Origin: Bryoerythrophyllum caledonicum
Lineage: Eukaryota > Streptophyta > Bryopsida > Pottiales > Pottiaceae
Length of the DNA stretch: 64,000 nucleotides
Assembly: GCA_963971425.1 (NCBI GenBank)
Contig: OZ020514.1
Location: 12,343,218-12,407,217 of the forward strand
Reading direction: 5' to 3'
The notes below the pieces were generated by a model, which ran no database searches, was not told where the DNA came from, and saw only the letters and a program-made list of their open reading frames with translations. Below, piece by piece: positions 22,872-49,345 of this stretch. Both the position numbers and the translations under genes were made by a program. The stretch's first letter is position 1. The number at the start of each line of letters is the position of its first letter.

Positions 22872-25710
22872 ATGCAAGGCGCAATGCATTCCCAGATGTG
22901 GAGAGGGCGAGTAGGACTCCATTCCACTCGGAAAGACACTGCAACCAGAATACTTGTAAATGGAGGCGTCGTAGTCCGAGCCTCCGCGGAGCGCGAGGTG
23001 AAGGCCAACGCCGTCGCGGCGCCGCCGCCCGCCATTGCCGAGGACCGGCTGGTGCCTCGCGTGGAGGAGCGCGGCGGGTACTGGGTGGTGAAGGAGGAGT
23101 TTCGGCCGAAAATCAACCCCTCCGAGAAGATCAAGCTGGAGAAGGAACCCATGAAGTTCTTCGTCGAGAACGACATCGAGCAGCTCGCCAAGATCCCCTT
23201 CGCGGAGCTCGACAGCAGCAAGCCCGGCAAGGACGACATCGACGTTCGCCTCAAGTGGCTCGGCCTGTTCCATCGCCGCAAACATCAATGTGAGTTCCAC
23301 CTCTCCAACTCTCATCTCAACTCTCGGATGTATCGCAAACTCTCCTTCCTAACCCCGACGACATGCAGATGGGCGCTTCATGATGCGGTTCAAGCTTCCG
23401 AATGGGATCACGAACAGCACGCAGACGCGCTTCCTGGCGGACTTCATCACCAAGTACGGCAAGGACGGGTGCGCGGACTTCACGACGCGCCAGAACTGGC
23501 AGATCCGCGGGATCGTGCTGGAAGACGTCCCGGAGCTTCTGAAAGGACTGGAAGCGGTCGGCCTGTCTTCGCTCCAGAGCGGCATGGACAACGTGCGCAA
23601 CGCCGTGGGCAACCCGCTCGCCGGCATCGACCCGCACGAAATCGTCAACACCGCGCCCTTCTGCCAGGCGCTCAGCGACTACATCATCAGCTCCGGCAGA
23701 GGCAACGTCGCTGTGACCAATCTGTAAGCTTGACACAACAATTTCCTCAGTCTAGACACAAGTACGTTTCCCGCTCTAACTCATGCACGGATCGTTGCCT
23801 GCAGGCCGAGGAAGTGGAATGTGTGCGTTGTAGGCACGCACGACCTGTTCGAGCACCCGCACATCAACGACCTAGCTTACATGCCGGCGATGAAGGACGG
23901 CGTGTTCGGGTTCAACATCCTGGTCGGCGGCTTCTTCAGCCCGAAGCGGTGCGCGGAGGCCGTCACCATGGACGCCTGGGTGCCGGAGAGCGACGTCGTG
24001 CCACTCTGCAAGGCCATGCTGGAGGCCTACCGCGACCTCGGCAACCGCGGCAACCGCCAGAAAACGCGCATGATGTGGCTCATCGACGAAATGGTAAAGA
24101 TATTTCCAATCTTCAAACCCCAACCTCACGAAAATCTCGCTATTCGCCTACAGTTTCGTGCCTGTCTTATATTAAAAAAGAGGGATTAGGGCAGCCAGTG
24201 AAACCACCGGAGGAATTAGGGCAGCCAGTGAAACCACCGGAGGAATTAGGGCAGCCAGTGAAACCGCCGGAGGAATTAGGGCAGCCAGTGAAACCGCCGG
24301 AGGAGTTAGGGCAGCCAGTGAAACCACCTTCCTGATCTCACTAAAACCATCTCACGCTCACAGTGGTTCTCTTGCGTGTTTCTGCAGGGAATTGAGGAGT
24401 TCCGTGCAGAGGTTGAGCGCCGCATGCCGAGTGGCACCATTGCTCGAGCTGGGGAAGACCTGGTGGACCCAACATGGAAGCGGCGGACGTTCTATGGCGT
24501 GAACCCACAGAAGCAGGCTGGGCTTAACTTCATCGGGCTGCATGTGCCCGTGGGGCGGCTGCAGGCCCCGGAGATGTATGAGCTGGCGCGGATCGCAGAT
24601 GAGTACGGTAGCGGCGAGTTCCGCATCACGGTGGAGCAGAACCTGGTCCTTGTGAATGTACCGGACTCAAAGGTAGAGGCGCTCCTGCGGGAGCCATTAC
24701 TGGAGAAATATTCCCCCAATCCCACACCGCTGCTGGCAAACCTGGTGGCGTGCACAGGGAAGCAGTTCTGTGGGCAGGCCATCGCGGAGACTAAGGTAAC
24801 CCCCTCATAACCATACATGCACATTGCTGGTCACCATGGGCATAGATGCACATTGCCGGTCACCATAGGCATATGTGCACATTATTTTTCTTTGACTGAT
24901 AACCAACTGAACCCATAACCAACACCTCTAAAATTGGGGTATATCCAACCCACTTCCATCCCATTATCGCCCATTCACCCATCCAAATCAAGATTTGTTA
25001 TTAGTCAGGACCCCTTGCTTTTGGTTGGTGCTTGTGGGGTATCTATTGATGGCCATGGTTAAACATGGTAGCACACTTTGGAAATTTATAACTAATTCAC
25101 ATTTCAACGGAAAAATATGAAATCACTTAGGTTGGAACTCTAATTCTATTGGCTATTACTAAAAAATAAGATTGTGTTATCATTTATTCTCTCCATATAT
25201 GCACATTGCTTAATGGTTGTCGGTTATGGGGGGGTTAGGAGAGAGCGATGCAGCTCACACTGGAGCTGGAGGCGACCATGGAGACAAGCCGACCCATTCG
25301 GCTGCATTTCACTGGCTGCCCTAATTCCTGCGCCCAAGTCCAGGTCTGTCAAGCTTCTCCCCTTCCTCTTCCCACATCCCCACTAGAAATCTACAACCGT
25401 CATGGAGTAAGCAGAACATCATCTAGGCAACTGGTAAATTTTGCATTTGTCTGGTTGCTGGTCATTGGAATGTTGAGGATGGGAGGTGAGTGGGTGGTTT
25501 TGGCAGGTTGCGGACATAGGGTTCATGGGAACGATGGCACGGGACGAGGACAGGAAGCCTGTGGAAGGGTTTGACATATTTCTGGGGGGCCGCATTGGGT
25601 CCGACTCCCATCTGGGGGACATTGTGCGGCCTAGCGTGCCTGCGACCCAGCTGCTGCCGGTTGTGCAAGAGATCATGATTGAACATTTCGGAGCCAAGAG
25701 GAAAGCATAG
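22872..25710 (+). CDS. NiR: Ferredoxin-nitrite reductase, plastid
   Basis: Six exons: 22872-23289, 23369-23723, 23805-24093, 24388-24795, 25239-25343, 25507-25710; 1779 nt, 592 aa, the usual plant length. Reduces nitrite to ammonium with six electrons from ferredoxin in the chloroplast stroma, using siroheme and a [4Fe-4S] cluster. Cluster/siroheme cysteines are visible as CTGKQFC (C476, C482) and GCPNSC (C517, C521). Other family signatures are YGRFMMRFKLPNGITNS, TTRQNWQIRGI, FNILVGGFFSPKRC and GLHVPVGRLQA. Residues 1 to about 55 are Arg/Ser/Thr-rich and fit a transit peptide. ATG 22872 is the first in-frame ATG after a stop at 22728, so the start is reasonable but an upstream exon is not excluded. 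Exons are GC-rich. Intron 3 holds a 30-bp tandem array and intron 4 is a TIR element. Confidence 0.96.
24181..24330 (+). repeat. 30-bp tandem repeat in NiR intron 3
   Basis: Five units of about 30 bp based on TTAGGGCAGCCAGTGAAACC plus a CxCCGGAGGAA tail. In one frame the repeat is open and continues the upstream exon frame as repeated GQPVKPPEEL, but the flanking GT/AG sites and the family alignment place it in the intron. Confidence 0.9.
24796..25238. mobile_element. TIR family C element forming NiR intron 4
   Basis: The intron begins GTAACCCCCTCATAACC and ends GGTTATGGGGGGGTTAG. The first matches the left end of free family C copies (GTAAGCCCCCCTCCATAACC, 48739) and the second the reverse complement of that end. 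Its interior follows the free copies in order: AAAATTGGGGTATATCCAAC, TCCATCCCATTA, AAAATATGAAATCACTT, CTCTCCATATATGCACATT. About 110 bp of extra sequence with two TGCACATTGCyGGTCACCAT units sits near the left end. Element ends and splice sites coincide within a few bases. Confidence 0.85.
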
Positions 25711-41368: not shown

Positions 41369-41712
41369 GTAAGGTAAGCCCCCCTAAAACCGACAAGTTA
41401 AGAAATGTGCATATATGGAGAGAGGAGATAATGATACTATTATTTTTCAGTGATAGCCAATTGAATTACAATTCCAACCCAAGTGATTTCATATTTTTTT
41501 TGATGAAAATTGAATTAGTTATGAATTTTCAAACTGTGCAGCTATGTTTAGTGGGTGGTCAGGAGTAGGTACCTCAATAACCAACGACCAAAAGTAAGGG
41601 TCTTGACAAATAGCAAACCTCCATTTGGAGCTCAGTTGGTGGTAATGGGATGAAAGAGGGTTGGATATACCCCAATTTTTTAGGCGTTGGCTATGGATTT
41701 TTGTTGATTATA
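41369..41712. mobile_element. TIR family C MITE, complete
   Basis: Left end AAGGTAAGCCCCCCTAAAACC, right end (reverse complement) GTAAGCCCCCTATAATC. The interior is the family C sequence in inverse orientation to the copies at 48.6-49.3 kb. About 345-350 bp. The left terminus begins with a consensus plant splice donor, AAG|GTAAG. Confidence 0.8.
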
Positions 41713-41756
41713 GGGGGCTTACATGACACGGGACACTGGCTAGTTTGGGTACATAT

Positions 41757-48618: not shown

Positions 48619-49345
48619 GCCAAGGTAAGCCTCTCCATAACCAACAAAAACCCATAGCCAACACCTATGAAATTCTAGAACTTTGAATTTTAGCATGACA
48701 TTCTAGAACAAGAGCTGAGGCAACCTTCCAATTAAGGTAAGCCCCCCTCCATAACCAATGCCTATAAAATTGGGGTATATCCAACCCTCTTCCATCCCAT
48801 TACCACCAACTCACCTCCAAATGGAGGTTTGCTATTAGTCAAGACCCTTACTTTCGGTCGTTGGTTATGGGGGGCACCTACTGCTAGCCACCCACTAAAC
48901 ATGGCTGCACAATTTGAAAATTCATAACTAATTAAGTTTTCATCGAAAAAATATGAAATCACTTGGGTTGGAATTGTAATTCTATTGGCTATCACTGAAA
49001 AATAATAGTACAATTATCTCCTCTCTCCATATATGCACATTCCTTAACGTGTCGGTTTTACGGGGGCTTACCTTATATCCAACCCTCTTCCATCCCATTA
49101 CCACCAACTGAGCTCCAAATGGAGGTTTGCTATTAGTCAAGACCCTTACTTTCGGTCGTTGGTTATGGAGGGCACCTACTGTTGGCCACCCACTAAACAT
49201 GGCTCCACAGTTTGAAAATTCATAACTAATTCAGTTTTCATCGAAAAAATATGAAATCACTTGGGTTGGAATTGTAATTCCATTGGCTATCACTGAAAAA
49301 TAATAGTACAATTATCTCCTCTCTCCATACATGCACATTCCTGGC
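48619..49345. mobile_element. Cluster of TIR family C elements
   Basis: 48619-48735 is a left-end fragment. 48736-49072 is a complete copy: AAGGTAAGCCCCCCTCCATA at the left, CGGGGGCTTACCTT at the right. 49073-49345 repeats the interior without a left terminus. The two long copies are nearly identical over AACTAATTxAGTTTTCATCG and TATGAAATCACTTGGGTTGG, so the duplication is recent or gene-converted. These are the reference copies for the element that makes up NiR intron 4. Confidence 0.8.

Follow-up and report, generated by a model that had tools for sequence, protein, structure and literature searches.

The origin of new introns is an old question, and introns made by transposons are already known as a kind, from Ds in maize and from introners elsewhere. 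The maize intron made by Ds, reportedly described by Giroux et al. in 1994, is said to be a mutant allele, the element belonging to the hAT type. Stowaway and the other TA-targeting MITEs of plants are short, non-autonomous elements with terminal inverted repeats (TIRs), which duplicate a TA upon insertion; the TIR of Stowaway reads CTCCCTCC.

According to the accessible part of PMC4256211, in the maize case a DNA transposon lying in a plant exon is removed from the RNA as an intron; according to the same source, in its treatment of plants, no species-fixed intron gain had yet been traced to a transposon. Introners occur in algae, fungi, and other eukaryotes; as far as the accessible text of PMC9860276 goes, the intron is itself a transposon, the mRNA length is unchanged, one splice site comes from an element end, and the other possibly from the insertion site. 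The same text requires at least five copies per introner family and reports a survey of 3,325 genomes in which introners were found in no land plants. A review (PMC12595863, in its accessible part) describes MITEs as suppliers of new splice sites in plants, but is concerned with altered splicing and mutation. In the open-licence literature, within the parts of the sources that are accessible, we found neither a MITE-derived whole intron nor a fixed intron made by a transposable element in a land plant.

Like the maize Ds, the locus presented here would be a DNA transposon in a plant exon that leaves the RNA as an intron; with introners it shares the coincidence of intron and transposon, a splice site in an element end, a second one possibly taken from the target, and a probably unchanged mRNA length; with Stowaway and similar MITEs, the short, non-autonomous build, the TIRs, and the TA duplication; and with the MITEs of the review, the supply of splice sites. 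It differs from each of these systems in some respect. It lies in a 64,000-nucleotide stretch of DNA (C1:12343218-12407217), analysed as a whole and hereafter called the window, and consists of the fourth predicted intron of a ferredoxin-nitrite reductase (NiR) gene. Judging from the sequence, this intron probably arose when a MITE inserted at a CTAAGG within the coding sequence of an ancestral NiR exon, from whose pre-mRNA it would have been spliced out ever since. In contrast to the maize Ds, the NiR copy is a Tc1/mariner-type MITE with a TA duplication, resides in an intact gene of a reference sequence, and differs by at least 17% from the retrieved copies of its family; unlike introners, which recur across many genes, it represents one case; and, compared to the MITEs of the review, it constitutes the whole intron. 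The TIR of its family (AGGTAAGCCCCC...) differs from that of Stowaway, and membership in the latter was rejected on this ground. An intron of a core nitrogen-assimilation gene that is still legible as a single transposon, and whose terminal repeat matches the consensus donor, offers a concrete and testable route of intron birth in plants, although from one assembly; we regard NiR intron 4 as an unusually clear candidate for such a birth in a land plant.

The NiR gene, at 22.9-25.7 kb of the window, is predicted to be intact. One open frame runs across the six predicted exons and codes for 584-592 amino acids, depending on the start codon; the product harbors the Pfam domains NIR_SIR (PF01077, 4.9e-59) and NIR_SIR_ferr (PF03460, 1.4e-40), and residues 38-581 of spinach NiR (2akj) align to it in a full-length match (E 1.7e-264). 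Both domains and the match to the spinach enzyme place it among the plant ferredoxin-nitrite reductases. The features of the gene and of the element are as follows:

22896..25710, + strand: NiR coding region, 6 exons and 5 introns (candidate starts at 22872, 22884 or 22896)
23290-23368, 23724-23804 and 24094-24387: introns 1, 2 and 3, predicted from sequence
24388..24795, + strand: exon 4, ending ...AETK; its final AG (24794-24795) is the first two TIR bases of the MITE
24792..24793, + strand: TA at the left target-site position, as in free copies
24794..24812, + strand: left TIR AGGTAACCCCCTCATAACC, holding the donor AG^GTAA
24796..25238, + strand: predicted intron 4, a MITE copy
24813..24898, + strand: extra 86-bp block, missing from 16 of 16 aligned copies
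25210..25214, + strand: branch-point-like TTAAT, its A 25 nt upstream of the acceptor
25222..25238, + strand: right TIR GGTTATGGGGGGGTTA plus the acceptor G, lacking the outer CCT and also the second TA that free copies have
25239..25343, + strand: exon 5, ERAMQL...HFTGCPNSC..., with the frame exactly restored
25344-25506: intron 5, predicted from sequence (as is intron 4)

The predicted donor of intron 4 is actaag^GTAACCCCC and the acceptor GGGGGGGTTAG^gagagagcg, so that exon 4 ends in ACT AAG and exon 5 starts with GAG AGA GCG. No gap is found at this junction in comparison with either spinach NiR or a paralogue on contig C8; the predicted splicing restores the protein exactly. The two ends of the intron form an inverted repeat at 15 of 16 positions, which, together with the genome matches, confirms the earlier observation that intron 4 runs from TIR to TIR of a repeated element (family C). 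The claim that the intron limits lie at the TIRs needs a small correction: the splice sites are indeed in the TIRs, but the element starts, after a TA, with an AG, and therefore the final two bases of exon 4 are the beginning of the TIR. Element and intron boundaries thus coincide as in introners, except that the left element end lies two bases outside the donor and the right one is truncated.

The genome (437 Mb, 894 contigs) was searched with intron 4, and the best 40 of 3465 first-look candidates were scored. Among the 41 non-self matches obtained, 39 are 80-83% identical and cover mostly intron positions 101-442; the other two are partial and 76-78% identical. Across the loci retrieved, 84 matches exceed 280 bp, with identities between 82.8% and 69.3%; the NiR element differs from the retrieved copies by at least 17%. 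The match is not full-length because the 86-bp block, which falls within the first ~100 bases, has no counterpart in the 16 other copies aligned; the block consists of repeated units of ~29 bp (88% over 43 bp), which resemble the right subterminal CATATATGCACATTGC of the same element. The outer left end was recognised through its 19-base TIR, for which position 24794 is the only place listed without mismatches. The branch-point-like TTAAT sits in a CTTAA stretch common to most of the 16 aligned copies, and the AT content of the intron is 60.5%, versus 37-43% in the NiR exons. A run of seven Gs directly before the acceptor makes a poor pyrimidine tract. Chance is not a sensible explanation for the identity of intron and element.

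Two free copies of the family lie in the window:

41372..41722, - strand: free family C copy, one end worn
48735..49073, + strand: free family C copy, TA-AGGTAAG...CTTACCT-TA

Positions 49074-49342 are a partial tandem duplicate of the latter. Free copies are mostly ~355 bp long (range 312-375 bp, 22 rows), with the layout N-TA-AGGTAAG(C/T)C...CTTACCT-TA-N. Genome-wide, AGGTAACCCCCTCATAACC with up to two mismatches is found 335 times, versus 27 for a reversed control, and the family end GGGGNNTTACCTTA 2534 times, versus 18 for the reversed pattern. The ends were read in 38 distinct copies picked by body similarity alone, the TA not being part of the searched pattern: the left end was present in 35, the right end in 33, and both in 31. 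An exact AGGTAAG is present at 24/35 left ends, and an exact CTTACCT at 27/33 right ends; a TA flanks 34/35 left ends and 28/33 right ends, and stands on both sides in 26/31 copies. When the sample was widened to 75 copies, some of them selected by their ends, 52 of the 69 left ends had an exact AGGTAAG, and the bases past the TA were variable. A PIF/Harbinger-type duplication of 3 bp (TAA/TTA) was rejected, since the ends are reverse complements and not direct repeats, and only TA fits. The copies are short and non-autonomous, with TIRs and a TA duplication, of which the NiR copy shows the left TA only. By these sequence features, the family qualifies as a large TA-targeting (Tc1/mariner-type) MITE family. 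The donor consensus and the plant branch-point consensus are general knowledge; the TIR corresponds to the former (AG^GTAAG), and the CTTAA(C/T) near one end fits the latter. The idea that the TIR itself is the source of the donor was borne out, free copies beginning with TAAGGTAAG.

These data suggest the following scenario. A non-autonomous TA-targeting MITE (TIR AGGTAAG...) would have entered the ancestral NiR exon at the TA within a CTAAGG of the coding sequence, duplicating the TA and leaving an AG on either side; the locus just after insertion may be reconstructed as CTA[AGGTAAC...GTTACCT]TA-AGGAGAG. The donor CTAAG^GTAAC would derive from the left TIR and the acceptor TAAG^GAG from the target's own AG after the second TA, with the CTTAA(C/T) by the right end as a putative branch point. 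As the AG of the repeat is interchangeable with that of the exon, the mRNA would have been unchanged from the first generation, and the duplicated TA would be concealed in the intron. A subsequent loss of six nucleotides (ACCTTA or CCTTAA) would then account for the present acceptor GTTAG^GAG, which is six bases shorter than the reconstructed one. The second TA of the duplication is not visible because the right TIR is incomplete.

The earlier note had derived the acceptor from a change of TTAC to TTAG. The TTAG is there, but the account is incomplete, since the outer CCT and the TA are gone too (TTACCT/TA in free copies, TTAG/GAG in the intron); as the origin of the acceptor, this change alone was rejected, splicing at TTAG of a complete end adding 6 nt.

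A second NiR gene (C8:26938811-26940736) has introns 1 and 2 in common with the window gene, lacks introns 3, 4, and 5, and is uninterrupted at the intron 4 site (codons GAG ACG AAG / GCG CGC). In Spirodela (duckweed), according to the accessible part of PMC8747334, exons 3 and 4, which other plants commonly have, are joined into one; this implies four NiR exons in other plants. Intron 4 therefore appears, on sequence comparison and on this partial source, to be extra relative to the paralogue and other plants. This agrees with the view that introns 4 and 5 are additions, as far as the paralogue lacks both and four exons are implied elsewhere; the paralogue, however, also lacks intron 3, an intron that other plants reportedly possess, and this makes it an imperfect outgroup, several 3' introns having perhaps been lost at once. 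Such a joint absence of introns 3, 4, and 5 is the pattern of reverse-transcript-mediated loss, and would fit the view that an ancestral intron 4 was lost by angiosperms and by the paralogue, the element being unconnected to its origin; this reading would still need an end-to-end replacement of the ancestral intron by the element, and we consider it very unlikely. Somewhat less remote, yet improbable, is that the element entered an older intron 4, the remainder of which was later erased on both sides by deletions. The presence of another extra intron (intron 5) in the same gene and the unproven origin of the 86-bp block carried by the left arm speak in its favor; it requires, however, deletions stopping exactly at both TIRs, and is at odds with a donor that is the family's own AG^GTAA (AGGTAAG being exact in 24/35 left ends), with the intronless paralogue site, and with the four exons implied in other plants (PMC8747334, accessible part). 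Intron gain by MITE insertion, as proposed in the earlier note, is well supported by the anatomy of the element, the intronless paralogue site, and the exon count drawn from that part of PMC8747334.

If intron 4 were retained, an in-frame stop would follow soon after the donor (the ORF ends at 24810), and the acceptor looks weak; NiR might thus be broken by the insertion or expressed merely as a truncated form. The dN/dS ratio between the window gene and the C8 paralogue, obtained by a counting method and spanning the whole time since duplication rather than just the time since insertion, is 0.132 overall (dS 1.04), 0.191 for exon 5, and 0.041 for exon 6. The low values downstream suggest that the gene is kept under selection behind the element. 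Exons 5 and 6 are open and in frame despite an element divergence of at least 17%, a state that would be difficult to account for if the intron were not spliced; an unspliced intron 4 is, in our opinion, the least probable of the alternatives considered.

Gain of intron 4 by insertion raises the question of whether the family has made other introns. The donor in the TIRs, the branch-point-like motif, and the high copy number are what a genuine introner would show, with NiR intron 4 as one of many introns made in this genome; moreover, 72 intact family ends, versus none in the control, stand directly before an AG, that is, a ready acceptor (2.8% of 2534). Both ends could be read in ~44 of the other copies inspected (22/32 rows, 13/30 loci, and 9/10 loci); we found no convincing coding-exon insertion among these, versus ~2,500 intact ends genome-wide. 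The comparison with introners made in the earlier note thus holds, so far, as an analogy; it had proposed a genome-wide search for family C copies coinciding with whole introns, and the ~44 copies covered here yielded no convincing second case. Forty of the 72 AG-followed ends were read; a donor at the other end was seen in 13/30 and 9/10, with no convincing coding sequence on both sides. At two of the 13 loci, an open stretch runs across the joint with 25 codons or more to either side (58 and 89 aa), and six of the 22 testable rows gave a joined ORF of at least 70 aa over the site. The longest of the latter (L038), the only one of the six scanned in Pfam, is Rpb4-like, its domain being confined to one side of the element. 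Flank ORFs numbered 575 before and 407 after overlap removal, of which 150 were listed; in the 20 of them scanned in Pfam, domains included kinase, LRR, bHLH, Rpb4, and retroelement ones, and, at the level of whole ORFs rather than single exons, none was seen crossing an element. TTAGG-ended places number 84, versus 12 in the control; of four fetched, one was not the element, and the TTAGG-ended copies on C6, C9, and C11 showed, on direct reading, no evident coding sequence beyond the end, although one frame of L102 is open. The absence of a convincing case among the ~44 copies, together with these last three, speaks, for this small share of the family, against many introns having been made. 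We hold it unlikely, though less so than any of the alternatives weighed above, that the family is a potential introner of land plants, NiR intron 4 being the first to be recognised among several such introns in this moss-like genome. If this were true, the AGGTAAG TIR combined with TA targeting could render any sense insertion into a coding TA-AG seamless after splicing.

As to the distribution of the family, the share of ends followed by AG (72/2534) is below 1 in 16, with target preference or selection as possible causes. In the first 100 places listed on C1 (a 65-Mb contig), family ends are dense to ~12.4 Mb and sparse onward to 32.6 Mb, and C5 and C13 have no place among the intron 4 matches listed, the AG-followed ends, or the TTAGG ends; the contigs are possibly mixed, or heterochromatic for the most part.

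Some further observations concern the NiR genes and the assembly. Intron 5 (25344-25506), extra compared to the paralogue, has an odd donor (CAG^GTCTGT), and its 3' end is rich in G; against the window, it gave only short matches at chance level. The C8 paralogue has an extra intron of its own (L009:730-814), between EK and IK near residue 78, that the window gene does not have. A degraded piece of NiR sequence, containing stop codons, lies at L017:1504-1763 (C3:37645771-37646042). Two plastid-like contigs, C894 and C821, carry psaA/psaB frames without stops and are identical at 413 of 450 nt in one psaB stretch; this suggests that the assembly may contain two different plastid genomes. Both PsaB fragments reach their top score, shared equally, with the PDB entries 7ksq, 6l35, and 8htu, structures of Physcomitrella photosystem I; the margin is narrow, the next chains being only ~2 to 5 bits behind. 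Taken with the NiR divergence, this tentatively points to a moss or a close relation of mosses, rather than an angiosperm, as the host. Finally, five units of 30 bp are arranged in tandem within intron 3 of the window gene (24180-24329); in every unit, 23 nt are antisense to exon 5 (25307-25329, the HFTGCPNS region), matching at 23/23 positions in three units and at 22/23 in two.
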